Of a stretch of 64,000 bases of DNA, positions 12,881 through 55,817 are shown in pieces (the stretch's first letter is position 1; the number at the start of each line of letters is the position of its first letter). The position numbers and the translations under genes are program-made. Source of the stretch: Zingiber officinale (taxonomy: Eukaryota; Streptophyta; Magnoliopsida; Zingiberales; Zingiberaceae). The stretch is from positions 33,367,202-33,431,201 of the forward strand of contig NC_055987.1 of NCBI RefSeq assembly GCF_018446385.1, read 5' to 3'. A model generated the notes under the pieces. It did no database searches, was not told where the DNA came from, and saw nothing but the letters and a program-made list of their open reading frames with translations.

Positions 12881-15006
12881 TTAGCCTACTTCCAGTGTTG
12901 TACCAGCTTTCCATTGTTTCTGTTGTGATCCTCTACTCTGTGATTCAACCTTCTTCTTCAACTCCTCGATTGTGATCATCACCTCTGACTCGAGCCCTCC
13001 GGCAAACTGCAGTGAAATGGAGAACTAAATAATTGGTAAGATTTGATGTCAGTTGATCCATGGCCATTAGTAGTTTGGATGTATCTACAGTTTACTTGCC
13101 TGGTGAGCCCTATAAGCAAATTTCACCCCCTGAAACAGAAGTGCCTCTTGTGTCGATTGCCTTTCGGAGGGCTGAAACAGTTCGAGCTCCATTGACACTC
13201 TACTCAGGTAGAGTCTTGCAAGCTTCACAGAGATTTGTTTCATCTGCAATTGTAAATGAATAATTTTTTTAGGAAATTGATGATTGTAAGTGAAGAGGAA
13301 AGAAGCTACAATGTAGGCAACTCTCTATCCTTTCTTCGAAAGAAAAAAGATCCGGCCTGTACCTTGTTAACCATGCCACAATCTAGCAACCAATCAGTCG
13401 GAATTTTGCACTCCTTGTATAACATCATATTTGCATTCCTCAACTCGAGCAATCGATTGACGCCGCGCTCCAACCTTGCATCATCATGGACCACAGCATG
13501 AGTACTAGTTGTTAGAAAATAGAAAGAAAATATTGGAAATGAAAGCAGAATGAGAAATTGATCATGAGTTTCTGCTTACTTGTCTAGTAAGTTTGAAATC
13601 TTCTTTAGTGTTGCCTCACATGGTGAGGAGGAATCTTCCTTCAAAGAACAAACTTGAGCTTCAAGTTGTTTTAGATCACGGTACTCAACGGCGGCTTCAC
13701 GCAATGCATCTGCTCTCTTCTCGGGCCAATCGAAATGCTTCAACACAGCTCTCTCATCAACCTGCTCAGTAGGTCATATAGAAACCACAAGAGTAAATAC
13801 AAGAAAGATGTTATGCATGGTCCAAATTCTATGATTCAGGAACATCAACAAATTTGTATCCTGGAGGAAATTAATTGAACACAGAATCTTACCAAGGTGG
13901 AGAGTTCTCCGTCAAGCCAATCAACAAAGGTTAGGACATCTTCCATGCTAGTGAAAGATGACAATTGCACCTTCTCTATAAGCTGCTTGATGAACTGCCC
14001 TTTTGTTTCCACGTCTGCTTTAATCTGCCCATGAACATCAACATTACATGAAGAATAAAACTTTGGTGATTTTTGACAGAAGCAACAGGATCTACCGCTA
14101 CTAGATGAGCTGATCGATGTTGAAGTTCTCCAACAATGCCACTATGTACGATACTGGAGATAGTGTTGGGAGAACCCCCATTGCTTGTCGAACCTTGCTT
14201 TCCCTCTTGCTTTGTCAGTGAATGGTATAGTTGGACTAGAACAGAGGAAGCCTTGTTCACTGTTGCTCTTCCTGAAGCATTGTGAGGTGGAGGAGGAGGA
14301 GGAGGAGGAGGAGGTGGTGGTGGTGGTGGTGGACCATGGGAAGCACGTTTGGAAGGCGTCAAAGTTGGAACAGGCATCTTAATCATTGCGTTTGGTTGAA
14401 ATTCTACTGCTTGGGTAGCAGGTCCCATTGCCAAAGGCTGGTTCTTGCAGATTCTGTTTCCAAATTTAACCTCCATTTCTGTAGGATTGTTCTGCTTTTC
14501 CTGAACAAGTTCCAGCAAACCTCTAAACTTAGATTTGCCATCTAATCAAGTCATTTAGTTTAATCATTCCTTAAATCAAAAGTTCATTCTAATTTGTTCA
14601 TTAAGTTCCATACCTGATCAATCTTCTCCATGCTCTTGATCTTTGCTTCAGCTGCATCGAGATCTTGCTCCAGCTTCCTGTTCTGTGACTCCAACTCAAC
14701 ATTCCTCACCTGCAACTTCTCTATCTCAGTCTTCAATCCTGTCACTTCCTTCTGCAACTCCCTCACCAATCTCTCACTCTCACCATCGACTCTTGGGGCA
14801 CCCAAACCGTCAGTGCCTGGCCTACGCTTGTTGAACTGAGGAGATCTCTCAGCCAATTTTGTGCTGCTTGAATCAAAAGAAGTAGATTTTGGTCTCGCCT
14901 TCAACCCTGTAGAGGTCCCATTAGCTGTATCTGTTCTCGGAGAGTCCTTCACTCTCGAGACTACCCTGGTTCTGGCTGCACGTGGAACTGCGGGCTCTTG
15001 CTTCAT
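12881..15006 (-). CDS. CHUP1/IPGA1-like coiled-coil, proline-rich protein
   Basis: Complete seven-exon gene: 14614-15006, 14096-14527, 13893-14024, 13580-13761, 13363-13504, 13100-13243 and 12881-13006, 516 residues, all junctions in frame. Residues 1-75 are basic and Ser/Thr-rich. About 76-130 is a coiled coil with leucine/glutamate heptads. Residues 197-212 are 16 consecutive prolines. From residue 276 comes the conserved C-terminal domain of the CHUP1 family, with FVDWLDGELSTLVDER, HFDWPEKRADALREAA and, near the end, HQFAGGLESEV. CHUP1 itself links chloroplasts to actin; short relatives such as IPGA1 act on cortical microtubules and cell-shape anisotropy. This protein lacks CHUP1's N-terminal membrane anchor and is about half its length, so the short IPGA1-like group fits better. 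The start at 15006 is the first ATG of the exon. Confidence 0.9.
13007..13099 (-). other. GC-AG intron in the CHUP1-like gene
   Basis: On the minus strand exon 6 ends CACCAG at 13100 and the intron begins GCAAGT, the textbook GC-donor consensus. The acceptor CTGCAG ends at 13007. Splicing here restores the conserved family run HQFAGGLESEV at phase 0. Confidence 0.85.
14285..14332 (-). repeat. Coding CCT/CCA trinucleotide repeat (16 prolines)
   Basis: On the minus strand the codons run as six CCA, then eight CCT, then one CCA and one CCT, giving 16 prolines in exon 2 of the CHUP1-like gene. A pure-run tract like this is likely to vary in length between alleles; polyproline in CHUP1 relatives is a possible profilin/actin contact. 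Confidence 0.8.
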
Positions 15007-16496
15007 AGCTTTGCTTGGACAAAGCAGTACTGCTGCCTCAAACCTGTAGCTGTGGAGTATATATATTCGAGATTATATCTTTATCATCGTGGTAGCTGAG
15101 GAAGGAGGAAGGAGGAAGAGATCACCAGTTGACTAAATTATGAAGCTTACGCGTTCAGGTTCAGTGGCAGCCATAAATATTACTTATTCATGCATGTCAG
15201 TAATTGTCTGTGTGGCTCCATGCTAAGTGAGAAAAAAGCTTAGGACCAGAGGATCTTAATGGTGTGATTTACTAATTGCATGCCTTTTCATTTCTGATCT
15301 CTTGCCTAAGATATATAGAGGGAAATGAGACAAATTATCAGATCAGTTCGCATTGCTGTATGCCTGTCTTAAAAGCCAAGTGCATCCATCTCTGATGCTT
15401 TTCTATGTGGGTGTCAAAGGTGGTTAGGTTAATTAACTAGTGCAACTTAGAAAACATTCGAATCACATAAAATTCTTCTTTCATTTTTCTAGATTTTCTT
15501 GCATTAACGCATGTGACAAACAAGACATATTGAAATCACACATCCAATAAATTGGCTAAGAATGAATGCATATAAACCAAACAAGTTCGGCGCTCACTTA
15601 ATCCAGCAACCATACCTAATACCTTAATTCCAAGTAAATTAAGCAATCACCCGAGCTAGCATGAGTTTATCTCCTCCGTGTTGATCTTTAGACGGATTGA
15701 GGGGAGAGCTGGGGACGAGCATATTCGTCTTTTGCCACAATGAGTATACTCGTGCATTCCCCATGAGAGACGAGTAGCTGAGAGTTGATATTTGATTATT
15801 TGAAATTTTTATATTTTAAATTTGTTTAGTTAATTATTGAATTTGATGATATAAATTTATTTTTTCATATTAAAAATTTATTTGTTTATTTAACACATAA
15901 GAATTTTATCAATGAGTAAATTTAATTGAACGAGATGAGACTTTGCTTGTGAAGGGTGATTTTTTCTGATTGCAACTTCTTAATATCCTCATGATTCTTC
16001 TCCCCTTTCTTTGTCACCAATCGAGTGCATCCAACCCAACTCCACCTTCAAATTGGACATGACTACGAATGTGACCCATCTTCAACTCCAAGAAATGGCT
16101 GGGGTGATGTTGATCTTTTGACCGGACGTTCATGTGACTGACGTCGTTTGAGTGACGCAAATTAAGCTTGAGACAAAAACATCTGCAAAGCCATTTACAT
16201 TATCCATATATCCGAAGTTTTTAGGCTTTTGAGAAGAAAGGTTATGCATGGGTTCCAGTTAATTAGTTAATGCATAGGCCTTGGATTTTGTTGACTTGAA
16301 TTAGAAGATGAACAAAGAAGTAGCTTCTACTCTTCGATATTATTTGTTTTTTGATTGTTGGTTTGTATGTGGTTGTCCAGTGCACTTCAAATGGTATTGA
16401 GTAGTGTGTAGTGTGTTCATAGGTCACATTATTTGAAGTGACATCGCTAGATCATAATAGATAGACAAAGAAGTGTTCTAATTAATTATTAATATT
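15007..16496 (-). promoter_or_regulatory. Upstream region of the CHUP1-like gene
   Basis: Gene-free and AT-rich. A TATATATA run at 15058-15066 (minus strand) lies about 52 bp before the ATG and could be a TATA box with a very short leader; this is a guess. The stretch ends in the ATTAATATT-type sequence into which the gypsy element inserted (target duplication ATATT 16492-16496). Confidence 0.35.
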
Positions 16497-18009
16497 TGAT
16501 CCCGTCCGGAAGTTGAGTCGGATGAAGACGGGCTTTGTTATGTGGAAAGTTGACTGAGAGTCGTAGAATTGTTCTATCTGCCTGATACCCCCCCCCCCCC
16601 CCCCCCCTCTTTGGAAAGGTTCACACGGGCGGTTGACGGCTAGAGATGATCAGGACGATGACGCTGTTGCCCTGCGCACACTCAGACTAATCCACCGGTC
16701 GTTAGAGACCAGAAACTAGGGGAAAAGTCCCCGGGTCAGGCCCTCCGACGCTCAAGTCAGGTACTTTTTCCTCAGAAAATACAGAGAAAAGACGAAAAGT
16801 AGAGACTAGTGAGAAATGACGAGTGAGCGTACCTGTATATAAGGGACAAGGCATCCCTTTTTATACTGCAACGGGAGTTTTTGGATCTGACGGGTGGCAG
16901 GGAATGTCAGCTGTCAGGCTTTGTCTGGCGGTGATTGACACGTGGCTTTTCTTGATAGGCTGGCGGCAAAATCAAAGGTGTATTGAGCTCCATTGATTAT
17001 TCTCTCTGACAAGCAGTTACGATTCATTGGCTGATTTGTCCTGTAGTGTCTGACCGACGAGCCTGCGTTTCAAGATCTGGACTCGCCCTGCTTTTATATA
17101 CTATTACCCTTGACTTGTATGCCCCGATCTGTGCTAAGCTTGTATCCAGATCTGCCTTTGTCACCTGCTGTCTCTGGCCTGCACATCTCGATCTGCACCC
17201 TGGGTTTGTATCCAGACTTCTGCTCCTTGGCTTCAATGTCCCGATCTACACTCTGGGTCTGTAGGTAGACCTCTGATCCTTGGTTTGGATGTCTCGACCT
17301 GTACGCTGGGTCTGTAAGCAGACCTCTAATCCTTGGCTTGGATGCCCCGACCTGCACGCTGGGTCTGTAGGCAAACCTCTGATCCTTGGCTTGAATGTCC
17401 CGACCTGCACGCTGGGTCTGTAAGCAGACCTCTGATCCTTGGCTTGGATGTCCCGATCTGCACGCTGGATCTGTAAGCAGATTTGTGATTCTTGGCTTCA
17501 ATGTCCCGACCTGCACGCTGGGTCTGTACCAGACATGTTTGTTTGTAGTTTCCGTCTTTAGCTATACCTGGCCCGCGAGCTTGTTTATTACTCACTGTCA
17601 GGGCTGGTCTTATAATCCCCTCCTTTGACCACCCTGTCCGCTGAGACTTTGACTTTGGACACGTAAGCTGGACTTTTGACCTCCCTCTTGTCCTTATCAT
17701 CCTGACTGCTAACCGACCACAACGGCCTGACCTCTGACCTTCCTGACCTCCACATCTGCTTGACTGCTGACCGGCCACGGGGGCTTGACTTTTGACCCTC
17801 CTGACCTCCATGTCAGCTTGACTGCTGACCGGCCACGGAGGCTTGACTTTTGACCCTCCTGACCTCCATGTTAGCTTGACTGCTGACCGGCCACGGAGAC
17901 TCGACTTTTGACTTTCCTGTCCTCCAGGTCAGCTTGACTTCTGACCCTCTTGTGGCCTTGACTCATAACCACATCATCCTATCGACCCCACAAAACATGC
18001 ATCGTATCA
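16497..18009 (-). repeat. 3' LTR of the gypsy element
   Basis: 1513 bp, TG...CA, matching 40095-41618 along its length. The first 40 bp differ from the other LTR only by transitions. It has a C-homopolymer of about 20 near 16589-16608 (about nine at the same place in the right LTR) and lacks a ~26-bp segment present at 40572-40600. Internal minisatellites give long minus-strand open frames (17094-17811) that are not genes. Confidence 0.92.
17225..17530. repeat. 53-bp tandem repeat inside the gypsy LTR
   Basis: CCTTGG-type starts occur at 17225, 17278, 17331, 17384 and 17437 with a further degenerate unit near 17490, a regular 53-bp period. Each unit contains CCTTGGCTT-GATGTCCCGA followed by CCTGCACGCTGGGTCTGTA and AGCAGACCTCTGA. 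The same array is at about 40835-41140 in the other LTR, so it predates insertion. Confidence 0.85.
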
Positions 18010-18209: not shown

Positions 18210-18217
18210 TATAAATA
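18210..18217 (+). promoter_or_regulatory. TATA-like box before antisense unit 1
   Basis: TATAAATA, 107 bp before the open frame at 18318. Similar boxes precede the other two antisense units, at distances of about 145-175 bp from their ATGs. Confidence 0.45.
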
Positions 18218-18317
18218 TGACACTGTTTTCTAAGCGTCGCCTCAAGTTTCAAGGAAATCTCTTCACCTTCTCCTTCCTTATAAAAGATCTGAACATCCGC
18301 TGCTTTCAACTATCCTC

Positions 18318-18821
18318 TTGTTAATGCAGTACTCTGTATCTATGGAGCCTACCACAGAACCTAGCGAATTTGCTTCTTTGCTTCGACAAACTTCCCATCT
18401 GCTAGAGCTATCGGCTCAAAAAGAAGAAACTTCGCTCCAGCACATTTCCACTCTGACGGAGTTGTTGGCTCAAAAGGAAAGCATCCTTCAGGAGATGACC
18501 GCGAGCAGAGATCTTCAGGCTTCCCTTACTCATGAGATGGAGAGCCTCTGGCTAGCCGCCAAATCTAGGACCCGAGCCGAAATCGCTCTTAAACATAAAG
18601 CTCAATCGGACTTCCAGAGTCAGGGGTAGTATATTGTTTATTTGAAGAGGAAGCATGAAGATGAGGTGACTCTCTTGAAAGAGGAGGGACGTATCAAAAA
18701 TGAAACCATTGGGCAGTTGAAACGTACCATCGACCTTATTACAGCAGATTTAATTAAGGTCCGAGCTCATCTGACTATAAAGGATCAAGCCTCTGGCTCA
18801 GGAAGCCATGTAAACCCTTAA
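18318..18821 (+). pseudogene. Antisense unit 1: short coiled-coil ORF with one stop
   Basis: A 167-codon frame antisense to the retrotransposon genes, broken by a single TAG at 18627-18629. It runs from MLMQYSVSMEPTTEPSEF through heptad-rich sequence (SHLLELSAQKEETSLQHIS, LTELLAQKESILQEM) and resumes after the stop with KRKHEDEVTLLKEEG before TAA at 18819. It looks like a coiled-coil tail resembling those of antisense units 2 and 3 but has no N-terminal domain. No function can be assigned; it may be a decayed paralogue of the longer units or a separate short protein. Confidence 0.5.
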
Positions 18822-19180
18822 AGAACGTATCTCTAATTTTGATGGAACAACAGTTGTTTTTTGTATTCCCCTCCTATTGTAGCTCCACTCTTTGCTTTGG
18901 ATATCATGATGTTTTTATAGAACACCTGTGTCTGTCTAATATTTCTAACAAAAATAATAGTAATAAAAAAGTAGATTGCTTACCCAATGTTACCTCATAT
19001 CATATGAACTCTTGACCAAAGTTAATGAGTTAGACGAAGATAGGCCTGCAAGACTCCCTATGTAATTAGAACCCTTGAATACTGCTTATTGACCAGTCGG
19101 ACGCGACAACTTAGCTCACGGCTTGGTGTGTCGGCAAATATAAGACATACTGCTCGAGAAAATCATTGCCCGATCGAGAA

Positions 19181-21203
19181 GGTCGTTGGTCGTGAGAGCC
19201 CTGCTCACTTATAACTCGCACTGGGGAGAGAGTCTGGGACAGCCGACCTGAAAGGTCGTTGGGCGTGAGAGCCATGCTCACTTATAACTCACACTGGGAC
19301 GAGAGTCTGGGACAGCCGACCTGGAAGGTCGTTGGGTGTGAGAGTCATGCTCACTTATAACACGCCCTGGGGCGAGAGTCTGGGACAACCGACCTGGAAG
19401 GTCGTTGGATGTGAGAGTCATACTCACTTATAACTCGCACTGGGGCGAGAGTTTGGGACAGCCGACCTGGAAGGTCGTTGGGCGTGAGAGTCATGCTCAC
19501 TTATAACTCGCACTGGGGTGAGAGTCTGGGACAGCCGACCTGGAAGGTCGTTGGGTGTGAGAGTCATGCTCACTTATAACTCGCATTGGGGCGAGAGTCT
19601 GGGACAGCCGACCTGGAAGGTCGTTGGGCGTGAGAGTCATGCTCACTTATAACTCGCATTGGGGCGAGAGTCTGGGACAGCCGACCTGGAAGGTCGTTGG
19701 GCGTGAGAGTCATGCTCACTTATAACTCGCACTGGGGCGAGAGTCTGGGACAACCGACCTGGAATGTCGTTGGGCGTGAGAGTCATGCTCACTTATAACT
19801 TGCACTGGGGCGAGAGTCTGGGACAACCGACCTAGAAGGTCGTTGGGCGTGAGAGCTATGCTCACTTATAACTCGCATTGGGGTGAGAGTCTGGGACAGG
19901 TCCATTGGGCGTGAGAGTCATGCTCACTTATAACTCGCACTGGGACAAGAGTCTGGGACAGGTCCATTGGGCGTGAGAGTCATGCTCACTTATAACTCGC
20001 ACTGGGGCGAGAGTCTGGGACAGCCGACCTGGAGGGTCGTTGGGCGTGAGAGCTATGCTCACTTATAACTCGCACTGGGGCGAGAGTCTGGTACAGCTGA
20101 CCTGGAAGGTCGTTGGACGTGAGAGTCATGCTCACTTATAACTCGCACTGGGGCGAGAGTCTGGGACAACCGACCTAGAAGGTCGTTGGGTGTGAGAGTC
20201 ATACTCACTTATAACTCGCACTGGGGCGGGAGTCTAGGACAACCGACCTGGAAGGTCGTTGGGCATGAGAGTCATGCTCACTTATAACTCGCACTGGGGC
20301 GAGAGTCTGGGACAGCCGACCTGGAAGGTCGTTGGGCGTGAGAGCCATGCTCACTTATAACTCGCACTGGAGCGAGAGTTTGGGACAACCGACCTGGAAG
20401 GTCGTTGGGCGTGAGAGTTATGCTCACTTATAACTCGCACTGGGACGAGAGTCTGGGGCAGCCGACCTGGAAGGTCGTTGGGCGTGAGAGTCATGCTCAC
20501 TTATAACTCAGACTGGGGCGAGAGTTTGGGACAACCGACCTGGAGAGTCGTTGAGCGTGAGAGCTATGCTCACTTATAACTCGCACTGGGGAGAGAGTCT
20601 GGGACAACCGACCTGGAAGGTTGTTGAGCGTGAGAGCCATGCTCACTTATAACTTGCACTGGGGCGAGAGTCTGGGACAGCCGACCTGGAAGGTCGTTGG
20701 GCGTGAGAGTCATGCTCACTTATAACTCGCACTGGGGCGAGAGTCTGGGACAACCGACCTGGAAGGTCGTTGGGCGTGAGAGTCATGCTCACTTATAACT
20801 CGCACTGGGGCGTGAGTCTGGGACAGCCGACCTGGAAGGTCGTTGGGCGTGAGAGTTATGCTCACTTATGACTCGCATTGGGGCGAGAGTCTGGGACAGC
20901 CGACCTGGAAGGTCGTTGGGCGTGAGAGTCATGCTCACTTATGACTCGCATTGGGGCGAGAGTCTGGGACAACCGACCTGGAAGGTCGTTGGGCGTGAGA
21001 GTCATGCTCACTTATAACTCGCACTGGGGCGATAGTCTGGGACAACCGACTTGGAAGGTCGTTGGGCGTGAGAGTCATACTCACTTATAACTCGCACTGG
21101 GGCGAGAGTCTGGGACAGCCGACTTGGAAGGTTGTTGGGCGTGAGAGTCATGCTCACTTATAACTCGGACTGGGGCGAGAGTCTGGGACAACCGACCGGG
21201 AAG
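19181..21203. repeat. 73-bp tandem array, about 28 copies
   Basis: Units begin GGTCGTTGGGCGTGAGAGTC at 19181, 19254, 19327 and so on; the last starts at 21130. Two units (19838 and 19899) lack a 12-bp GCCGACCTGGAA block. Each unit carries three short perfect inverted repeats: GTGAG with CTCAC, CTCGC with GCGAG, and CGACCT with AGGTCG around a GGA loop. Units are near-identical and uninterrupted, so this is a satellite-like array rather than CRISPR. It lies in the 3' region of the gypsy element, upstream of antisense unit 2. Confidence 0.95.
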
Positions 21204-21263
21204 GTACATCCCGACCACAATGTGCGTTGCAAACCTAGAGAGTAACCTCCTGGCTAAGACAGA

Positions 21264-21382
21264 TGTTGCCGACCTAGGGGTCGATCTCTTGACCAGGATA
21301 TATGTTGCCGACCTGGGGGTCGATCTCCCGACCAGGACATATGCCGCCGACCTGGGGGTCGATCTCCCGACCGGGGATTGCT
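21264..21382. repeat. Three-copy 39-bp repeat
   Basis: Three units of GCCGACCTGGGGGTCGATCT followed by CCCGACCAGGACATAT. Each again contains an inverted pair, CGACC with GGTCG. It directly follows the 73-bp array and may be a related degenerate module. Confidence 0.7.
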
Positions 21383-21782
21383 TGAAGAGCTTCGACTTTG
21401 TCTGTCATCAAAAAATATACCATTAGTGGTGCTGTGAGGATAACCATATTAAAATCTTACTCAGCCTTGGCCTCGCTGCATTTGAATTTTTTTCCCGCTT
21501 CTTTTCTTTGACGGTCCCCAAGAAAATCGTGTGGTAAGCGTTTCCGCACTCCCGCTTCATATCATGATTTGCCTTATCACAACCATCATTAATACGACTC
21601 TTAGGGGATCGACGCCTGTCTCATGCCTTTATTGCTTATGCATGATGACGCCGCCCACACCACTCCTTTTGGGTACACGCTTTCCCACAAGAACATGTCT
21701 CTCGGTGATCGAACGGCTTTAGGCGCTTCACCCAAAAAGATACTTGACATCCTTTTTCGATATTCCCGAGGAGAACTTCCTT

Positions 21783-21788
21783 TATAAA
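21783..21788 (+). promoter_or_regulatory. TATA-like box before antisense unit 2
   Basis: TATAAA, about 175 bp before the ATG at 21958, downstream of the 73-bp array. Confidence 0.4.
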
Positions 21789-21957
21789 CCCTAAAGGCAG
21801 TCCATCGTCATTACCTTGCGCATTTTGACTGCCTTCCTCTTTCTGTTGCTTCGACTTCTCCGGCATCTCCACCCTTCCCCTTCTAGGCTCTTCCCGTCTG
21901 GTGCTCTTCTCCCCTCCCCCCTAACTAATCTCTTCTGCAACCTTCTTTGTTTTGATA

Positions 21958-24560
21958 ATGGTTGACGGTAAGGCGACCTTTTGGTATTCGTGTTTCCTTT
22001 CTGACATAGACCAACACGACCTATCCATGATTCGGTCTGACTTGAGGCTCGGCAAAGAATATATACTTCGCATCCCCACACCCACCGAGCATCCTTCATC
22101 CCCTCCTGAAGGCTTTATGACCGTTTTCCGGATCAACTGATGGGGGGCCTCCTTTTTCCTATTCATCATTTTATTTCTGCCCTGAGCGAATATTTTGGCA
22201 TCTGCCTATCTCAATTTGCTCCCAACTTCTTCAGAGCAGTTTGCGGCACCGTCATTTTGTGTCATGTGTATCGACTTCCGCTGACAATCCAACTATTTCA
22301 TCATTTTTACTCTTTTAAATGCTCGGAACCGGGAGTGTTTATGGTATAGGCGAGGCCGGGTTATAAATTTTTCTCGGACATGCCTTCTTCAAATAAGGGG
22401 CGGAAATCTCGTTTCTTTTTTATTAAGTCCCCTGAGCCCCTAGTTGGGCCCGCCCAGTGGTGCTCTGGCATCCCTTCCAACCTCCCTGTACATCAACACC
22501 AACCCTCTTGCAACGCCGCCTCAGAAGCACTACAAGGCGTGAGCGTTAGCCTTTCCATATTACTGTTGGAAGGCTTTCTGTATTTGTTTGGGCTCAGCCC
22601 CGTTCGGGTAGACATCGGGGCACCGTTTGGTAAGACCCCGTTTTCCTCTCCACTACTCTTCGCTAACTGAGGTATCTTTCCTTTTTTATTGCAGAGGCTG
22701 CCATGTTCCGAGCGTACTCCTACGATGTTAAGCGCTGATCTGCCTCCTATTTGAAAACTTTAAGTGAGGAACTTACGCAAGGTTTAGCAGCTTCTTCCCG
22801 ATCTGGCCCTTCTGCTTCACAGTCAGCTCCTTCCGATCCACCACCTATCCCACCGGTGACGGCCCAGGAGGAAGTTTCTTCGGCCATTCCCATGGATGTG
22901 GCTCCAGTGAAAGACCTGGCCGTTGTAGGACAGGTTGATCTGTCCACTGTAGAGCAGATCGAGGAGGCCACTGAAGAACAGGTTAGGGAGACCGCTGAAG
23001 AGCAGGTCGAGGAAAGGCAAGTTGCATCCCCCCGGCCAGCCAAACGCCTGAAACTTCAACGCAAAAGGAAGAAAGCGACTCCAGCTATTAAGGCGTCACC
23101 TCCACCTCTTCCTTCTAGCCGTCACTGTTCTGCTGCCCTTCACTCTTTTGAAACCAAGACTGCTACTCCCACCCAGGAGATTAATATGGGGCCTGAAGTT
23201 CCCGTCGCGTCACCCCACCTATCAGTCTCGGCTCCCGGTCGAGTTATAACTCCCGAGCAGGTTTCTTTTCCCGCTCAGGCTTCTTCTCCCGGTCAGCTAC
23301 CTTTGCCTTTAGTGGATCAGCCCAGGAACTCTGCGACTCAATCTGCCTCCCTCCCTTTAGCTGTTCCCGCATCTACTTCTAGATCCCGGAGGAAAAGTCA
23401 CAAGAAGTATTCCTTTACTGACTATTGGCGCCTGCCTTCCTCCACAGGATCAGATGTCGCCGCCGCCACAGAAACTGCTGAAGGGGCTCCTCCCCGTATT
23501 GCCCAGGTTGAATTAGAGGGAGACTTAGCGGCCTCCTGGCGCTCAGGCCATCGAAAGTTTTGGAAGAATCCCCCGGTGGAAGGGCTAGATCAAGCGGCTT
23601 GCCAAATTGTTTCTGTAAGTCTTCTTCTCTCTATGTTCCCCTGTTGAAATCTTTCATAATTTTTCCTCTGAAATCTTTCATAATTTTTCTTCCTATATCT
23701 AACGCAGGCCTGCTCCGCCAACCTAAGTGTCATTCAGTACGCCTGCAGCTTACAGAGGGAAAATGAAAGTGCTGAAGGCTCGTCTTGAGGAAATAGAGCT
23801 GCCCCTAACTCCCCGCGATCCTCTCAACCTGACTCCTGGAGACCTAGCGCATTATCTTCGCTTGATTGGGGAGTCTGCTGAGTCTGCCCGCAATATTTCT
23901 CATGCGGTTTTTGACAAGATAAGGGCTTTGGAAGCAGCTCTTCAGACAAGCGAATTGAAATTGACTTCTGAAGTGGAGAAGCATCAGGCGCTAGCAGCTA
24001 AGCTAGATAAAAAGGATGCCCAGTTGGCGAGCCTGCAGGAAACCCAGGAGAATCTTCAGAAGACGATAATAGAAGTCCAGGGTCAGTTGGCTTCCAGCGC
24101 CGACCAGGAAAAAACCCTTCAAAGCAAGTGGGAGGTCACCCAAGCGACTCTTAAATCAATGCAAGCTGACCTTCTGAAAGCTCAAGAGGACGTTTCTTAA
24201 AGTCAACAAGCCTTGACTCTGGCCCACGCCGACAAGGAGAAGGTCGAGACTAAGCTGACAGATTATCAGGCAGGTGAAGTAGGTCGTCTGAGAGCCTACA
24301 GGCGAGCCTATGTTACCTCCCCTTTCTTCATGAGGAAAATGGGAGATCTAATGAATTTCCTGGTATGTTGTGGCGCGGGTGGAGGAGCTCGCCAAATGTT
24401 TGAACAGAATTTGTTTCGGGCTGCCCCTTCGGAAGATTTCCTGGATATAGGTCGCATCATGAACGAGATTCCTGATGGGTCATTCCCTTCTTTCAAAGAT
24501 GATGACGACTTCTTCCTTCTTCCCGAGCCTCCGGCTAATTCTACGTCCTGCCCCACTTAG
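21958..24560 (+). pseudogene. Antisense unit 2: Transposase_28-like spliced gene, decayed
   Basis: Antisense to gag-pol. Three parts are visible. The first, 21958-22629, holds the fold typical of 'putative gypsy type transposon' proteins: FPIHHFISALSEYFGICLSQ, then RAVCGTVILC, then PSSNKGRKSRFFFI. It has a frameshift near 22135 and a stop at 22347-22349. After an intron (22630-22694) comes a low-complexity middle rich in Pro, Ser and Glu with a basic patch (PAKRLKLQRKRKKA, a likely nuclear localisation signal) and KKYSFTDYWRLPS. After a second intron (23615-23707) comes a long coiled coil ending GAGGGARQMFEQNLF, EDFLDIGRIMNEIPDGSF; one stop lies near 24200. It is a paralogue of unit 3 with the same three-exon plan. 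Function unknown; proteins of this type ride in Tat-lineage elements. Confidence 0.7.
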
Positions 24561-25288
24561 CACCCTGATGGCCCTGTTGAAGATAATCCCCCTGCTGAAG
24601 ATAATCCCTAAGATGACCCTATGTATTGCACTTTTATGCATTTTTTGATGTACTGATCAACTCTCTTTCAACTTAGTCGTTGATTTTTCTTCATTTTAGT
24701 GTGTTTGTCCTTCTCGTGTTACCACTTGGCCGCAGACTTTCGCTTGTCCCTTAGCATATTGATCTTTTTAATAGTAGGTTTGCTCCATTGTTGATAGTCT
24801 TGTATACTTCCCTCCTAAAATGCCCCAAGATCTTGTGTGTAATTTGGCCACCTATTTTAGGTCTCATTTATCCCTGATCGGGGATTCTTCTATTTCCCTG
24901 ACCTGCTTTCCTTGTCCTTTTCTGTCGATCCCCTTCTTCGGTCTTGCTCCTCGATCTGTCCTTTGCCTCGTATTATAGGTCTGGATAACCGAAGGCCGGG
25001 AAATTAGGAGTTAAGCACAGATCGGGGCCCCTCGTGATCCAGGTCTGTATAGATGAAGGCTGGGGTATTTAAGAGCTAAGTCCAGATCGGGAAAGCGTGG
25101 GCATTTTTCTAAGACAACTTGTTCATATCTTTTCCCGAGATCCGCCTCTTCGTACTTCGCGCCGGTACTTTTCCAAATATGCCCTTGGGTATTATTTCCG
25201 AGGAAGATCCTTCGGCTCTCGTTGTTCCTACCCATTATTTTACTCCGATGGATGATAATATGATGAAATTGCCCCTTTGCTCAGCGAC

Positions 25289-25296
25289 TATAAATA
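25289..25296 (+). promoter_or_regulatory. TATA-like box before antisense unit 3
   Basis: TATAAATA, 138 bp before the ATG at 25434; the box is identical in sequence to that at 18210-18217. Confidence 0.45.
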
Positions 25297-25433
25297 TTCT
25301 CCTCGCTTTCGACTTCAAACGTTTCATGTCCTTTTCTTCTTCCTTTTGCTTGAATCCTTCCTTACTTCTGATCCTCCGGCTTTTGTGTCGATAGCTTTTC
25401 ACTTGATCTTTCTTCTTTTTGTTTCTTTCTCTC

Positions 25434-28098
25434 ATGGCCTCCTCTTCCTTTCTTCCTTCTCTGGCGGCGGTATACTATCCTGGCTCATCCACCTTCGATG
25501 AATTGGACCGAGATGACCTACGCTACACCTACGGGGTTGAGGATGACACGCAAGTGATTATCCCCACTGGGATACATCAGTTCTTCAATCCCCCTAATGG
25601 TTCTAGCACCTTCTTTAAAGAGCAATTTGTGACGGGCCTTCGTCTTCCTATCCACCCTTTCTTTTCCGACATATGCCGCTACTTTCGAATTCCCCTGGGG
25701 CAACTGACACCCAACTCCATCAGGATCCTCTGTGGCTTTGTAATACTATGTGACGTATGTAAATTATCCTGGTCCTCCCACTTATTCCACTGCTTCTTTA
25801 CCCTTCGGCGCCAGGAAGAGGGCACATTCCGTTTTCAGCCCCGTCTGCACACTACCTTTTTCTCATCCCTGCCGCCTTTTGATCCGAGCTGGAGGAACAA
25901 ATTTTTTTTCATTATCTTTCCCTACGAGGTGGAGTGACCCTTGCGATGGAAACAATCACTTCCTCCCTCTCCCGAACTAGGGGAATTTCATCTTGACTCT
26001 TCTTATACAAAAGCCTCGTCTCGCTTGTCCGGCTGGCAGCTGAATTTGACGCGTCTATTATCGTCTGAGGAATTGTTGTCCTATTTTTGCCTGAGTTATT
26101 TGACCCTTGATACGCCTCGCTCCCTGGGTAAGCCTCCCTTTCCTTTCTGATATCACTTCGCGGGCACTTTATTTTTTCTACGGCAACTAATTTCATACTT
26201 TATCTTGTGCAGCTGAAGTCTTAACCCACGCTTCAGAGGTTCAACCCCTTCTTCTGAGCGATATGGAACTAATGAGGTGTGGCCGAGTTATCTTACAGAG
26301 GAGAGCACTCCCCCACTCGTCTTCGACTTCAATCGGTGGGGCTTCACCGGCCAATGCTCCGCCCCGATCTGCTCGGCGAGGGTCTGCTGGTGTCCGACCT
26401 GCTCCCTTGGCTCACCCCTCTCGCCCACGTACTGCGCGTCCACCTCGGCCGACCACCCCTGCTCGCCCCGGGCTGCTCGTCCACCTCGACCGGCCGCCCC
26501 TGCTCGCCCCCGGGCTCCACGTACAGCTCGGCCTACTACCTCAACACCCCTCCAATCGGTTAATCCTCCCAGAGCCACTTATATCCCTGGTCTGGGCCTT
26601 GGTGGAAGATGTATGGGCCTTGGCGGAGGAACAAGCAACGTTTCCTTTGCCAGCCCCGTTTTCAGAGAGGCTTCTCAAGCAACTCGCAGGGCCCGCTCTA
26701 CAAATGACCGCCTGAGCCAGGATGCCCCTTCTCCCTCTAGACACAGGGCTCGGTCACCCTCCGATGATTCTGATTCGGATGACCAGCCGCTGGCTCAGAG
26801 ACGTCGGCGCCGAGCCTCTTGTCCGGTGTCCGACTCAGGCCCGTCGTCTATCCCTTCTCCTCCCCCAACTGCAGCTGCCTCTCCTCCACCTCCCAGTGTG
26901 ACACTGCCTCCAATCCCGAGCCATGTAAATGATCCCCCTATTCCGTCCAATATTCACGTCGAGCCTCCGTTGGCTCAACCTTCCACCCAGCAACCTCAAG
27001 GCGGAGAAGCTGGGCCCTCAGAATGCCCTTCAGTTACCCCACCTGCAGCACATCCTCCGGGGCCTTCTTCAGCTCCCTCTGACTCAACTGCTGATCCCTC
27101 AGCTCCTCCTGGCTTAGCCGTGGGTCCCTCAGAACCATCCCCGCTTACTTATCACTGTTACTATACTAGTATCCCTTCTGAGGGGATGTTATGGTCCCGA
27201 ACAGATGTTCTCACCAGCTCCCTCGAGATAAAAGGTCGTCTAGCCACTTTATGGGAGGAAAGCATACAACACATGGACTCCTTGCCTCCCTTGGCCCAGA
27301 TGGACAAATTTGCAGAGTTGTATATCAAGGTAAACTTTGAAGATTTCCCAACTGTTATTTTTCCCGCTCTTATCAGATATTTCCTGTGTGCCCCAGGCTT
27401 ATGCAGAGTCTCTGGCAGTGAACAATTCATTCCATGCTACTCATCATCAGAATAAGGTGCTGCGGGACCAGGTTGCTGAACTGGAACTGCAATTGAATGA
27501 TCTTGCCCAAGCTAGCCATCCTTTGCGGGCCGAGATAAAAGATTTGACCAAAAAGAATACTAGTCTGGAAGTATCCGTAGCGCTGGCTAACCGTGCACTT
27601 AAAGTTCTCCAGGAAGAACAAAGCCAAGTCAATATTGTGCACCAGCAGAGTATAGATCAACAAACTTTAGAGCATCAACGAGATATGGAACAATTGACTC
27701 AGAAGTTGCGTACTGCCGAGACTCTGGCGCAAGAACAAGACAAGAAGTTGAAATCTCAGGAGGCTCAATTGACCTCCCAAGCAGTAGAGCTGACCACGGC
27801 CCGGAAGGAACTGGCTCAGGCTCGGGCTACCACAGAGGGCGTATCAACAGCTCTGGCTATTTATAGAGATGGAGAGAACGATCGCTGCCTATAAAACCGT
27901 GCTCTGTATCTGCGTTCTCCGGAATTTTGTGTACAGGTGGGACAACGTTTCTCTACTTCTGTTATCTATGGGGCGGGCGGGGCTCTGCGTCAACTTTATG
28001 AGCAAGACTACTTAAAGTTACTTCCGCCTCTTGAATTTTTAGACCATGACCGAATCCTCAAAGAGATCCCGGAAGAAATTTTTGCTCCTTTCAAGTGA
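25434..28098 (+). pseudogene. Antisense unit 3: Transposase_28-like spliced gene, decayed
   Basis: Begins MASSSFLPSLAAVYYPGS. Exon 1 (25434-26127) has the same core as unit 2: LRLPIHPFFSDICRYFRIPL, LTPNSIRILCGFVILCDV, and LFHCFFTLRR. A T-homopolymer near 25903 shifts the frame. Intron 26128-26212. The middle exon, to 27329, is Pro/Ser/Arg-rich with RQ-like spacers and a basic run AQRRRRRASC; several frames are open at its GC-rich start. Intron 27330-27396. The last exon is a coiled coil (AYAESLAVNNSFHATHHQNK onward) with one stop at 27892-27894, then GAGGALRQLYEQDYL and EFLDHDRILKEIPEEIFAPF to TGA at 28096. Exon plan and C-terminal motif match unit 2. No catalytic residues can be named. Confidence 0.7.
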
Positions 28099-28353: not shown

Positions 28354-31300
28354 TCAAACTCGATAAGGTCGCAGGTAATTAGCACTCCATGGCCGATCTA
28401 GCCTCTTGCCCCGTTCGTCTTGTAAATAATAAGCTCCGGATGCTAACTTTTTAATGACTTTGTAAGGCCCGTCCCATTGAGGTGCTAGCTTAATCACACC
28501 CCCCACTAACTTGATTTACTTCCAGACCAGATCTCCTTCTCCAAAGAATCGAGGAATTACTCTTCTGTTATAATTTTGTCTCATTCTTTGTCGATAGGCC
28601 TCCAACCAAGCCGCCGTTCTGTCCCGAGTTTCACTAATAAGATCCAGCTCAGCTAACCGCCGCTCTGTGTTTCCTTCGTCATATAGTGTCCTCCCGACTG
28701 ATGACACTCCAATTTCTATGGGTACAACTACTTCATTGCCATAAACCAGGTGGAATGGTGTCAGACCTGTACTTTCCCGAGGTGTTGTACGATAGGCCCA
28801 CAGAATGCTTGGCAGCTCTTCCACCCAATTACCTTCAACATGATCTAACTTGACTTTCAGACCCCGTACTATTTCTCTGTTGATTACCTCGGTCTGACCA
28901 TTGCTTTGTGGATATGCTACTGAAGTGAAGACTTGCGTTATGCCAAATCCCTTACACCAGGCCTGGATTCTTTGTCTTTGAAATTGCCTTCCATTGTCAG
29001 ACACCAGCTTGTGAGGAATACCAAATCTACAAAGAATGTTCTTCCACAGGAATTGAATGACGACATCTTCTGTGATCCGGGCCAGGGCTTCTGCTTCTAC
29101 CCACTTAGAAAAATAGTCCACTGCCACCAATAAGAAACGCCTCTGACCAGGCGCCATCGGAAATGGTCCCATGATATCCATGCCCCATTGATCAAAAGGA
29201 CATGAAACTATAGACGTTCTCAAAAGGGTCGTGGATCGATGTGTCAAATTTTGATGTTTCTGGCAGGACAAATATGTATTCACCAACTTGTGAGCATCCC
29301 TCTGTAAAGTAGGCTAGAAATACCCGGCCAGGAGTACCTTGTGAGATAATGTCCGACCGCCAACATGATTGCCACAACATCCCAGGTGTATTTCTCGCAA
29401 GGCCTGGTCAGCTTCCTCTACCCCCAAGCATTTGAGTAAAGGTCGAGAGAAGGACCTCTTGTAGAGCTGATCTCCAATCATTACATAAGCATGCGCTTGC
29501 TTCCTAATCAGTCGTGACTCCTCTAGATCGGTTGGTAAGATACCCTGCCTGAGATAATTGATCATGGGTGCCCGCCAATCAATAGTTGCTTCTATATTAT
29601 TTTACAGATCTATCTGGGCTATCAGAAAAGTTTGTGCCATTGACCGATTCAACACCCAAGTAGTTAAGGAATTGGTCATCTTTGCTAACTCATCTGCCTT
29701 CTCATTTTCTGACCTGGGTATCTTGGTTATAGTGACCTCTGTAAATTCTTCCTTCATCTTCTCATAAGCTTCCCGATACACTTGCAATTTATCAGAAAGT
29801 TGCCTGTCACTTGCTGCGTTACCAACTATGAATATGAATAAATGATTACTCGGGCTGCCCCTACATGCCGGGCTGCTTGTAGTCCTGCCAACAAAGCCTC
29901 GTATTCTGTTTCATTGTTCGTGGCTTGGAAATTCAATCGAACTGCCAGTTGGAGTATATCTCCATGAGGAGATATTACCAAGACACCAACCCCGCTTCCC
30001 TGGTGATTAGCAGACCCATCCACGTATATCTTCTAGGTTTCTTCAGAGTTGGTCTGATGAACTTCTATTAAAAAATCTGCCAAGGCCTGCGCCTTAATGG
30101 CGGTGCGCGGCTGATACTGTATGTCATATTCTCCCAACTCCGTTGCCCATTTAATAAGTCGACCCGCAACTTCTACATTAGTTAGTGCTCTTCCCATGGT
30201 GATATTGGTTAGGACTGTGATAGGATGCGATAGAAAATAGGGTCTCAACCGCCGAGCCATAAGGACTAATCCATAAACCAACTTCTCTAGGGTCGTGCAT
30301 CGAGACTCGGCCCCTTTCAATAAATGGCTGAAGAAATACACTGGCCGTTGTACATTATCATGTTCTTTAATGAGCACGACCCCTACAGCCTCAGGGGTAG
30401 CCGACAAGTAGACCCATAAAGGTTCTCCTACAACTGGCTTAAAGAGAGAAGGGAGAGTCTCCAAATACTTCTTCAGTTCTTCGAAAGCTCTGGTGCATTC
30501 TTCATCCCATTGGAATTTGGAGGTCTTCCTTAGCACCTTAAAGAAAAGAGCAGCTCTGTCTATAGATCGGGAAATAAATCTTGACAGGGCTGTTATTCTA
30601 CCGACCAGCTTCTAGGTTTCTTTTAAATTTTGAGGAGACTGCATATCCTTTAGTACTTGAACTTTTTCAGGATTGGCTTCTATTCTTCGCTCAGTCACCA
30701 GGTAACCCAAGAATTTTTCTCCTTTAGCTCTAAATAAGCATTTCAAGGGATTCAGCTTCAGCCCATATTGCCGGAGAGTACTGCATGTTTCTTCCACATC
30801 TTTGATCAAGTTCCCGACCAACGGGGATTTGATGAGTATATCATCTACATAGATCTCCACATTTCGCCCGATCTGCTCCCGGAAGATTTTTTCCATCATT
30901 CGTTGGTATGTGGCTCCGGCGTTCCTGAGACCAAAGGGCATGACAGTATAACAGAAAGTACCATCAACCGTAATAAAGCTAACCTTTTCTTGATCCTCCC
31001 TTGCTAAAGGTATCTGATGATACCCCTGGTAGGCGTCCAACATACATATCCGCCAGCCGTGGAGTCCACTATTTGATCAATCTGGGGCAGAGGATAGCAG
31101 TCTTTAGGGCTGGCCCGATTAAGGTCCCAGAAGTCTATGCACACTCTCCACTTATTGTTGGGCTTCTTCACCAAGACTACATTGGAGAGCCATGATGGGA
31201 ACTGAACCTCCCGAACATGTCCTGCCTTCCTGAGCTGATCTACCTCGGCTCTTATTATTTTATTCTAGTCTGCTGAAAAATTCCTTTTCTTTTGTTTGAC

Positions 31301-31603
31301 AGGTCTGGAATCTGGTAATAAATGCAGCTTGTGTTTTGCTACTTCCGGCTTGACCCCGGGCAGCTCCTCAGTAGACCAGGCAAAGACATCCCGGTTGCGA
31401 ATCAGACACTGAATTAACTCTTCTTTGAGGGAAGAGGGCAGGTCACTTGTCACCGGGGTCAAACTTTTGGGTCGCTCGGCGTGCAGTTGTACTTCCTCCC
31501 AAGGGATGGGTTCTTTCGCTATAGGTAGAGGCTCCTCTTGAACAGCATGAACACCGCCATCTTGCATCCTTTGATTTTTCCGAGTCTCTACTCGGACCAT
31601 GTC
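28354..31603 (-). pseudogene. Gypsy pol: RT, RNase H, second RNase H, integrase
   Basis: Reading down the minus strand: the region before RT near 31400-31265; reverse transcriptase 31043-30612 with MPFGLRNAGATYQRMM and the active-site YVDD; RNase H with its connection 30536-30033; a second RNase H domain starting MDGSANHQGSGVGVL (30023-29826); the integrase zinc-binding and catalytic core 29565-28516, including FDQWGMDIMGPFP and VSDNGRQF; and the integrase C-terminus WDGPYKVIKKLASGAYYL ending at TGA 28354-28356. Several in-frame stops (for example 31262-31264 and 28513-28515) and frame changes show it is dead. The double RNase H points to the Tat lineage. Its upstream frame meets the protease frame exactly across the nested insertion. 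Confidence 0.92.
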
Positions 31604-31608
31604 AATAT

Positions 31609-33269
31609 TGTTAGGACCTTCGGATGCGGCTAGAGAGGGGGGGTGTGAATAGCCGACCCCAAATTCTCGTTTCTTCCTACAATTTGAGTTAGCGCAGTGG
31701 AAATAAAAAGTAGAAACGAAAATGGAGAATATCAAACCTCAAACGCGACGATATAACGAGGTTCGGAGATGATACTCCTACTCCTCGGCGTGTCCGTAAG
31801 GTGGACGAATCCTATCAATCCGTCAGTGGATGAAACCCCAGAAAACCGGCTAATGAAAACTCCTTCTGGGTGGAGAAACCTCGCCACAATCTCTCTTGCA
31901 ACAGCAAGATCAGAGTACAAGACATACAGCAAGAAGCCAAGAACAATATGAATGTAAAAACACTAGTTTGCTTGCCTTCTCGTCGACTGTTGATGAAGCA
32001 GCAACTTCACGGATGCCAACCACAGCAGCAACTGTTGTTGGAGACCCAGCCGAGGGAATCTCACACGAAGCTTCAGCAGTAGAGAGCTTAACCAAGCTCA
32101 GATCGCAAAGAGGAAGAAGAAGAAGCAGTCCACTTCTCTGCCTTCAACCTCGATTTATAACCAATCTGCGAAGAAGACAAAGAAGACACAGAAATCTAGC
32201 CGTTGTGACTCAACGGCTAGGCCTGGACCGATCAGGCTATGGCCTGATCGGTCCCCAGACCAATCCCAACTCTCACAGAGAGGGGTTGCCGAGCCCTGAT
32301 CGATCTGTGGACCGATCAGGCCATAGGTGGATCGGTCCACAGACCGATCCCCCTATTGATCACCGATCGGTCATCAGACCGATCAGATAACCCACAGAGA
32401 GCTACTGTGTGGTTACTGATCGGTCACGAGACCGATCAGATAACTAAGGTATCACTGGATCGGTCGACAGACCGATCAGACAGCCAAAGTATCACTGGAT
32501 CGGTCAACAGACCGATCTAATGCCTCTGTTGGTTTTAGAGCTTCCCAGCCCTAAATCCTAACGTCTTCCTGGTCCAGAGAACGAGCTACCGAGACCTCTC
32601 CGACTTCCACGTCCGATCCAGAGAACGAGCTACCGAGCCCTCTCCGACTTCCACGTCCGGTCCAGAGAACGAGCTACCGAGCCCTCTCTGACCTAGTCTA
32701 GAGAACGAGCTATCGAGCCCTCTCCTACTTCGTCCGGTCCAGAGAACGAGCTACCGAGCCCTCTCTGACCTAGTCCGGAGAACGAGCTACCAAGCCCTCT
32801 CCGACTCCATCCAGTCCAGAGAACGAGCTACCGAGCCCTCTCTGACCTAGTCCGGAGAACGAGCTACCGAACCCTCTCCGACTCCATCCAGTCCAGAGAA
32901 CGAGCTACCGAGCCCTCTCTGACCTCCCATGCCAAGCTTCCATACTTAGACTTTTCCCGTACCAAGCTCCCTGCTTGGACTTTTCCATGCCAAGTCTCCA
33001 TACTTGGACTTTTCCCGTGCCAAGCTCCCTGCTTGGACCTTTCCGTGCCAAGTCTCCATACTTGGGCTTTTCCCGTGCCAAGTCAACTCAAGTCGGGTCA
33101 ACCAGGTCAACCTTGACCAAAGGTTGCACCCACAATACCCCAAGTTCCTATTCTTGTCAAACATCAAAATATAACTTCTCCATTCTTGTCAAACATCAAA
33201 ATATACCTCCAGTCAGGTCAACTCGAGTCGGGTCACCCAGGTCAACATTGACCTAAGGTTGCACCAACA
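31609..33269 (-). repeat. 3' LTR of the TR-GAG element
   Basis: 1661 bp. Besides the element ends it holds at least five GATCGGTC-N4-GACCGATC palindromes (32330-32517), a minisatellite built on AGAACGAGCTACCGAGCCCT (about 32575-32925) and a third array of CCAAG-CTCC-T-CTTGGAC units (about 32930-33080). The right LTR has the same modules in different copy numbers. Confidence 0.88.
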
Positions 33270-33283
33270 ATCTCCCCCTTTTT

Positions 33284-34984
33284 GATGTTTGACAAAAACC
33301 ATAATCAAGTTAGGTTAACCCGATAACCTAACTTAGGTTTTCCAATAGTTCTCCAATGTTCTTCCTCGAATATTCTCTGAACATTCTCCCCAAACTCCAA
33401 TGTTCTTCCTTGAACATCCTCTGGACATTCTCCCCCTTTTTGACACACATCAAAAGGGGTGAATCAAGGTCAAGAGTTTCTTTCTAATGAAAGTCTCATA
33501 CCTTTCATTGAAACCCTTAATTTCCCCCTTGATACTAAAATCAACAATCAACTTAGTGATAATCCCATATCACTCATCCTCAGAAATCTTGACGAGTAAG
33601 AACTCCCCCTAAAAGTCAACTCCCCCTTGACCAATAGGTAAAACTCCCCCTAAAGGTCAACTCCTCATTGACCATTGCACCAACAATGTCTTGGAGAGTT
33701 TCAACCCTTTAGAAATCTAAAACACCAACTTCCACAGCTGAAATTTCAGACAACAGTCGAAAATCAGCATTTTGGCACGCTCTGATCGGTCACCAGACCG
33801 ATCAAGACTCCACTAGATCGGTCACCAGACCGATCCACACTACCCTGGATCGGTCCAGTGACCGATCCAGACTTCCCTGGACCGATCAGGAGAATTTCTG
33901 ATTTTTCTCCCGAAATTCAGAAACCCCTAAAAAATTACAGAAAATTCCAAAAATTATAAAATTTTGAGGATACATTCCTCATAACATATATTATCATGGA
34001 AAAATAGTTTTCTATGAAAATAACTCCCATTTTTTAATCTTGATACAAAGTTCGAAATACTTTGAAATAACTCAAGGTTAATCCATCTTTGTATCAATTT
34101 GCTCAATGATGAATGCTATCACTAGAAAAGCTTCATCAAGGTTTTTCAAATCAATTTTGAAATGATCTTAAACCATTCAATTTAGGACCACAATCTTAGG
34201 GCTAAATGTACATGCCTTGTATACAAGTTTTCCCTATGATCCTCAAATTCGAATTAGGCTCATCTAGGTACAAGAACTATGCACCTTGATCCTAACTCAT
34301 AATCCTAATATCTCACACACATCTAAGGTGTATCAAACACATCCAAGTCAATTTTGATGTGAGATATGAGTTTAGGTCATCTTAAGCTAAGTTCTCATGC
34401 ATTTTCTAAACAACAATTTGATCTCCATATCAAATTGTGTTTCTATCCTTAAATCACATTAATTGATCATAAATGCAAGAGATGATGACATGGCATAAAA
34501 TAATATCATAAGTGAAAATATGTGCCAATGTCATGATGTCATGGCATAAAGTATGAAACTTAAATAAGACATGACATATAACTAACCTAAGCATTATCAT
34601 GACATTTCAAATGATAATAAATATGATGTCATGACATGACATATGACAAACAATGTATGGCAAATAACATATAAAGATATAGAAAATACCTAATTCTAGC
34701 CTTAGTTGCCATTTTTGATAATTTTGATCATTTTACCATAAATTCTATATTCCTAAGTGTAATAGACCTAAAATCATATACTAAAGATTTTTAGATCACT
34801 ATGTGCCAATTAGATTGACCCTAAAAAACTCCTCAAATGTGGTTGGCACATCCTAATCACCTTAGGAATAATTTTTAATTTCATTTTCAAGGCTTGATTA
34901 CACCTTGAAAATTCCTAAAATGCCACCTTTTGTCATGAGTAGGTTAACTACCTATCCAATTAAGGTTGGCACACCCAAAACCAT
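33284..34984. other. Non-coding 3' half of the TR-GAG interior
   Basis: AT-rich and stop-dense on both strands. The only marked structures are three GATCGGTC-N4-GACCGATC palindromes at 33784-33867, the same motif as in the LTRs. This is where pol would sit in a complete element, but no trace of it is visible. Confidence 0.7.
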
Positions 34985-36460: not shown

Positions 36461-36508
36461 ACTCTAACTCGTGCTCCCCCGGGTGTTAATCCGACGAAGA
36501 GCGACCTC

Positions 36509-36520
36509 GCTCTGATACCA
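36509..36520 (-). promoter_or_regulatory. Primer-binding site (initiator Met tRNA), TR-GAG element
   Basis: Minus-strand TGGTATCAGAGC, complementary to the 3' end of plant initiator tRNA-Met, two bases from the 5' LTR. Confidence 0.9.
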
Positions 36521-36522
36521 CT

Positions 36523-38109: not shown

Positions 38110-38114
38110 AATAT

Positions 38115-41618: not shown

Positions 41619-41723
41619 ATATTATTATTTGTTACATTATATATATTTATTTATAGTTTTAGGGTAATTTGGTCATTTTCTCTTTTATGGTTTGAGTTTA
41701 GGGTTTTTTTTAATTAAACTATA

Positions 41724-43117: not shown

Positions 43118-43526
43118 TGGTATCAGAGCAAGGTTCTCTTTCTCGGACCTAATTTTTTCTATCGCCCCCTGTTATTGCTTCCTTTTGCAGCTATCGTTTC
43201 CTACTGCTATTGTCGATTTTCGACACCAACGATCTGTCCTGCCGATTTTTGCGCTGACGCTCTTTTTTGTCGATTTAGGCGCCGACGTCCTATGTTGCTA
43301 ATTTCGCTGCCGACACTCTTTTCTATCGATTTTGGTGTCGACTCCCTGTGTTATTGATTTTGGTATTGACGTCCTTTTCTACTAATTTCGACATCGATAC
43401 CCAGTGCTGTTGATTTCTATATTTGACATCCTTTTCTATCTCGAATTCTCTATGTGACCACGGGTCGCCCTAACACCATTTTTTTATGGATTATACAGAT
43501 GTGTATCCTTACAGTTTGGTTATTCT
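43118..43526 (+). pseudogene. Leader and start of copia gag, interrupted
   Basis: Follows the primer site. It includes a TTC/GAC-rich stretch with repeated CGATTT-GGCGCCGAC-type units and no clear Gag domain before the large insertion at 43527. It resumes at 55818. Confidence 0.4.
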
Positions 43527-53107: not shown

Positions 53108-53121
53108 GCTCTGATACCAAT

Positions 53122-55812: not shown

Positions 55813-55817
55813 ATTCT

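Follow-up and report, generated by a model that had tools for sequence, protein, structure and literature searches.

The window analysed here is a 64,000-nt stretch of Zingiber officinale DNA (NC_055987.1, positions 33,367,202–33,431,201 of the forward strand; all coordinates below are window positions), and 16497–41618 of its minus strand is a single long terminal repeat (LTR) retrotransposon insertion. In all likelihood this element belongs to a diverse Retand-type family in which two spliced accessory genes, units 2 and 3, form a conserved tandem pair between pol and the 3′ LTR, in antisense orientation. On the plus strand the order between the 3′ LTR and pol is a short open reading frame (ORF; unit 1), an array of a 73-bp repeat, unit 2 and unit 3, the last converging on pol. 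The three units opposite gag-pol lie where a sequence-only reading of this DNA had placed them.

Structure of units 2 and 3

The introns of both units (Table 1) were inferred from reading frames together with GT/AG signals. The sequence-only reading had given the two proteins a Transposase_28-like N-terminus, a Pro-rich basic middle, a common tail motif and the same two intron positions, all of which are found. The PF04195 (Transposase_28) profile matches unit 3 (E = 4.7e-15, 56 bits) and unit 2 (E = 2.7e-10, 40.7 bits) above the Pfam cut-off of 26.2; basic runs are seen in exon 2 of both; the places and phases (1, 0) of the introns agree; and the C-terminal domains, which end in the GAGG..RQ..EQ..EIP tail, are homologous (40.9% identity over 66 aa, E = 8.5e-12; 0 of 1000 shuffles). 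Both proteins have a Lys/Glu/Gln-rich region between the Pro-rich middle and the C-terminal domain. The coiled coils proposed for all three units fared less evenly. A crude heptad test supports one in unit 3 (19/1000 shuffles) and in the second half of unit 1, and supports none in unit 2 or in the first half of unit 1.

Part of exon 3 of unit 2 (23778–24197) is matched weakly, below cut-off, by the Pfam profiles Mis12 and MAD. Mis12 and mitotic-checkpoint names are also listed for antisense ORFs by Vicient (2025; PMC11963269), and some of the ORFs so named may be the last exon of a spliced Transposase_28 gene. The window element suggests that surveys of unspliced ORFs are likely to split such genes into pieces. 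In a sequence search of the PDB the Transposase_28 profile found no match and the C-terminal domain weak ones only (best E = 0.18). An AlphaFold2 model built from a two-row alignment was poor (mean pLDDT 47, best part 70–78).

Conservation of the pair in the genomic loci read

A PF04195 search of the 3.09-Gb Z. officinale genome returned 24,226 first-look candidates, 150 of which were scored, all above cut-off. The best 20 of the 150 listed (L009–L028, ~7.1 kb each) were read. Unit-2-type sequence lies upstream of unit-3-type sequence, on the same strand and in the same order, in every one of these 20 loci. The Transposase_28 domain of unit 2 itself is present in 16/20; L024 retains the unit 2 tail alone, and L026 just 30 residues of this tail. 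Past unit 3, on the opposite strand, follows an integrase C-terminus in 14 of the 20 loci and also in L032, a locus that was read on the other side of the match and is uninformative on unit 2. L031, at first sight without unit 2, was left out of the 20, as its similarity to the window stops at the equivalent of 25557 and the locus is cut short.

These layouts bear on two deflationary accounts. That the units are an artefact (chance ORFs, a misassembly or two adjacent elements) might be suggested by their disruption in the window copy, but there is one LTR pair with one target site duplication (TSD) and the same arrangement recurs in 20/20 loci, so that we give this account practically no credence. 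Capture of host genes is scarcely more credible: introns and own promoters do look gene-like, but the pair stands beside integrase in most of the loci read, the first-look candidates run to tens of thousands, and similarity to Transposase_28 is reported to be absent outside transposable elements (PMC11963269).

An unrooted tree of 37 Transposase_28 rows (77 columns; L015 excluded, its best piece being too short) separates 16 unit 2 rows from 21 unit 3 rows with a support of 100/100. Over 14 elements including the window's, unit 2 distances correlate with unit 3 distances (Mantel r = 0.814, 0/2000 permutations); the two genes therefore travel together. Searches for relatives in viral_contigs (with unit 3 exon 1, reverse transcriptase (RT) and the two-row alignment as queries) and in genome_contigs confirmed none.

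Selection and conserved signals

Judged from their codons, units 2 and 3 are each under purifying selection. Medians of pairwise Nei–Gojobori omega, with shifted frames of the same DNA as control, are 0.141 in unit 2 (187 of the 189 pairs with enough codons; two were saturated) and 0.138 in unit 3 (210/210 pairs), the shifted frames giving 1.24 and 1.70, and 1.13 and 1.83, respectively; the values are rough, with a median dS near 1 and pairs that are not independent, and the contrast between frames is large. The sequence-only reading had made its claim depend on copies elsewhere with intact antisense frames, and other copies are indeed open at places broken in the window. At the four in-frame stops of the window copy that separate the query pieces, 11/12, 15/17, 12/14 and 14/15 testable copies have an open frame, and the start of unit 2 continues in frame into Transposase_28 in 14/16. 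The copies bear further stops of their own, and none is named here as a working copy.

Three splice signals were followed in the copies. The donor GT of intron 1 is kept in 13/13 testable copies of unit 2 and 19/20 of unit 3, and the acceptor AG of unit 3 intron 2 in 14/15. A TATA-like box had been claimed before each unit, and all three are present in the window. With the array excluded, seven TATAAA occur on the plus strand where 1.25 are expected (first-order Markov); 13.7% of positions have one 30–200 bp upstream, and all three unit starts do. In the copies the claim holds best for unit 3, whose box lies 137–145 bp before the ATG in 16/20.

Retrotransposon antisense RNA can silence or interfere (PMC7264820, PMC12786077), and the transcripts of these units might act as RNA (double-stranded RNA, siRNA or interference with gag-pol), the proteins being irrelevant. 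The low omega is confined to the coding frames, and starts and splice signals are kept. A role of the RNA alone is already contradicted by this and we consider it very improbable, whereas RNA and protein roles together are possible.

Relationship and origin of units 2 and 3

On sequence comparison units 2 and 3 are ancient paralogues. Over 69 residues their Transposase_28 domains share 44.9% identity (E = 2e-13). An alignment is also obtained for the second half of exon 1, with a score that 0/1000 shuffles reach, and for the N-terminus, with one reached by 1/1000; the Pro-rich exon 2 cannot be aligned between the two. Identity at codon positions 1, 2 and 3 is 0.507, 0.631 and 0.309 over 217 codons, with 0.262 expected at the third from composition. 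Third positions are thus near saturation, and the split is therefore much older than the insertion. The two LTRs differ at 69 of 1500 aligned sites (Kimura two-parameter distance (K2P) 0.048), which at a rate of 1.3e-8 substitutions per site and year dates the insertion to ~1.8 million years ago.

The sequence-only reading had an antisense gene duplicated in tandem inside the element and then diverging. The paralogy stands, but the in-element tandem origin does not follow from a split far older than the insertion, and the second gene could equally have been taken up from a related element; neither origin is favoured. Acquisition from a different Retand element, through template switching between co-packaged RNAs or a nested insertion without ends, is a possibility that we take seriously while holding it tentatively. 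Retroelements are known to switch templates, the best domains of units 2 and 3 share no more than 45% and 41% identity with third positions so worn, and the spacer and flanks hold no trace of a duplicated block; against it, a pol, LTR or PPT (polypurine tract) remnant was looked for in the spacer between units 2 and 3 and none was found. Both genes retain their introns, and the second would therefore not derive from a spliced antisense mRNA; it may have arisen by DNA recombination or by template switching on unspliced RNA.

The host element and the decay of its window copy

The sequence-only reading had called the element a Tat-lineage gypsy element, and this is borne out by its LTR pair, TSD, primer binding site (PBS), PPT and second RNase H. 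A PBS-like TTGGCGTCGTCTGTGGGAA follows the 5′ LTR. The Pfam domain order is protease, RT, RNase H, integrase (PR-RT-RH-INT), that of Ty3/gypsy elements, with a nested element between protease and RT. A second RNase H-like domain, PF13456, lies at 29605–29910 between PF17917 and PF00665 (E = 1.5e-4, barely passing cut-off); the order RH, second RNase H, INT is the Ogre/Retand position inside Tat (PMC6317226). An antisense Transposase_28 gene in the region from pol to the 3′ LTR is a trait of the Retand lineage, and with it this Ty3/gypsy element of the Tat clade is probably of Retand type. Its pol-to-3′ LTR stretch of 10,344 bp falls outside the 2.9–6.6 kb published for recent Retand elements (PMC11963269), which is a size range and no defining rule.

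The frames of gag-pol are interrupted by stops, and the antisense units are broken too, which the sequence-only reading had left unmentioned together with the nested insertion. Unit 2 has five lesions (frameshifts near 22132 and 23770; stops at 22347, 22736 and 24198) and unit 3 three (stops at 25935 and 27892; a frameshift within 26217–26577). From the LTR divergence, 1.57 and 1.63 stops are expected since insertion in units 2 and 3, and ~2.4 frameshifts per gene, the latter an estimate that rests on three gap events. The observed lesions are of the expected order, and both units may well therefore have been intact when the element inserted; the window copy would have decayed afterwards.

Table 1. 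Features of the host element and its antisense units in the window
Feature	Position	Strand	Remarks
Unit 2 exon 1	21958–22629	+	ATG 21958; Transposase_28 at 22134–22346; phase 1 end
Unit 2 introns	22630–22694, 23615–23707	+	phases 1, then 0
Unit 2 exon 2	22695–23614	+	Pro-rich; basic runs near 23060 and 23381
Unit 2 exon 3	23708–24560	+	helical region; conserved C-terminal domain 24300–24497
Unit 3 exon 1	25434–26127	+	ATG 25434; Transposase_28; phase 1 end
Unit 3 introns	26128–26212, 27330–27396	+	phases 1, then 0
Unit 3 exon 2	26213–27329	+	Pro-rich; basic run near 26800
Unit 3 exon 3	27397–28098	+	coiled-coil-like region; conserved C-terminal domain 27898–28095
TATA-like box of unit 2	21783–21788	+	TATAAA, 175 bp before ATG
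TATA box of unit 3 (TATAAATA)	25289–25296	+	TATAAA at 25289, 145 bp before ATG
Unit 1, short ORF	18324–18821	+	ATG 18324; one internal stop at 18627
TATA-like box of unit 1 (TATAAATA)	18210–18215	+	TATAAA at 18210, 114 bp before ATG
Tandem array	19178–21205	.	73-bp monomer, 28 copies
5′ LTR	40095–41618	-	1524 bp; TSD ATATT at 41619–41623
3′ LTR	16497–18009	-	1513 bp; TSD ATATT at 16492–16496; polypurine tract adjoining inside element
gag and protease	gag 39156–39827 (PF03732), protease 38085–39152 (PF13650)	-	two stop-to-stop pieces
pol remnant	28354–31738	-	pieces: RT PF00078, RNase H PF17919/PF17917, integrase PF00665
pol stop codon	28354–28356	-	
Nested LTR element	31609–38109	-	TSD AATAT; same orientation as host element
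CCHC gag-like ORF of nested element	34985–36463		

Unit 1, the tandem array and other features

A homologue of unit 1 in L030, the single relative readable on that side, has an open frame, is 89% identical and is likewise preceded by a TATA box. In L029, which lies upstream of L021, unit 1 and the array were not found; its RT is 27–35% identical to that of the window and the locus is, on this evidence, probably another insertion. Unit 1 and its homologue differ at 19, 5 and 31 sites of codon positions 1, 2 and 3 (165 codons, a single pair). The 131-codon open stretch is unremarkable in length, 1.6 such being expected in shuffled sequence; by codon usage it ranks first among the six frames (z = 4.4), in a blunt test that gives 1.6–2.8 for controls and 2.3 for unit 3 exon 1. 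The crude heptad test returned 23/1000 shuffles for its second half and 622/1000 for its first. The idea that unit 1 is a remnant of the unit 2/3 tail was considered and rejected, the similarity not being significant.

The 73-bp monomer of the array carries, by eye, a short internal inverted repeat (ACTCGC / GCGAGAGT). Arrays of this sort in retrotransposons reportedly give rise to satellite DNA (PMC7004042).

The LTRs of the nested element are ~81% alike with many gaps. Elsewhere in the window, 43526–46208 and 53121–55814 are 2.7-kb direct repeats, 97% identical and separated by 9.6 kb, which are probably LTRs belonging to a further young element, and a copia-type pol remnant (SH3_retrovirus, RVT_2) occupies 57021–59085 of the plus strand. 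Minus-strand ORFs at 13845–15072 encode a stretch resembling a coiled coil and a long run of prolines; we take them to resemble a CHUP1-like host gene, and Pfam gave zero matches above cut-off.

A model for the antisense pair

Each of the paired genes would be driven by its own antisense promoter. The introns may outlast retrotransposition by virtue of their location on the strand opposite the genomic RNA, and would persist because copying of that RNA leaves opposite-strand introns in place. Less certainly, the proteins might work in the nucleus, binding DNA and oligomerising, to regulate or assist the element's own cycle, and roles might be divided between the two paralogues. The basic runs of exon 2 resemble nuclear localization signals and would fit nuclear proteins such as that reported for Grande gene23; DNA binding by Transposase_28 proteins is a prediction (PMC11963269).

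Several points weigh against this account of a conserved, functional pair. The evidence is DNA sequence, and the omega values are rough, as noted. The 20 top-scoring loci are an uneven sample of the genome, and all three units are disrupted in the window copy. The box of unit 2 is weakly conserved, standing 167–170 bp before the start in 5/17 copies, which is near background (2.0 expected at 0.117), although the position is constant. Of the two relatives tried, one showed unit 1. The heptad test leaves a coiled coil in unit 2 unsupported (248 and 352/1000 shuffles). Foldseek with the AlphaFold2 model found no significant fold match (best E = 1.0), and DNA binding is thus unsupported.

A stronger version, which we regard as rather unlikely, is a two-component antisense system in which the two proteins depend obligately on each other, whether as a heteromer or as activator and repressor at different sites, with unit 1 as third partner; the LTR and the tandem array would then be candidate target sites. 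If true, this would give a plant LTR retrotransposon a divided set of accessory genes comparable to that of retroviruses.

Comparison with known systems

The sequence-only reading had called the layout non-standard, and in the main texts of the literature searched neither a tandem paralogous pair nor conserved introns in antisense Transposase_28 genes were found, an earlier report being possible. The nearest relatives are the Retand elements surveyed by Vicient (2025; PMC11963269), where antisense Transposase_28 occurs in 97% of recent clusters. They are like the window element in the position between pol and the 3′ LTR, in tandem arrays and in a long internal region, but one Transposase_28 ORF is named per cluster, with neither pair nor introns in the main text, and their pol-to-3′ LTR stretch is shorter than the 10.3 kb found here. 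Silene Retand has ORF3 and ORF4 past pol, ORF4 with Transposase_28; unlike the unit 2/3 pair, paralogy of ORF3 to ORF4 is unstated in the sections describing them (PMC3290532, PMC7264820). Maize Grande gene23 is an antisense accessory gene with its own promoter and a nuclear protein (PMC7264820), one gene as against the pair here. Bean families such as pvRetro13 have an extra ORF2, some with an SMC-like match, and a single ORF2 size is tabulated per element (PMC4093653); this ORF2 is described as antisense (PMC7264820).

A lone antisense Transposase_28 gene in Retand is therefore already known, whereas the conserved spliced pair is apparently new. A pair of paralogues under equal constraint implies that there are two worthwhile ways of doing what the protein does, and the differences between units 2 and 3 offer a comparison within one element for seeking the function of Transposase_28.

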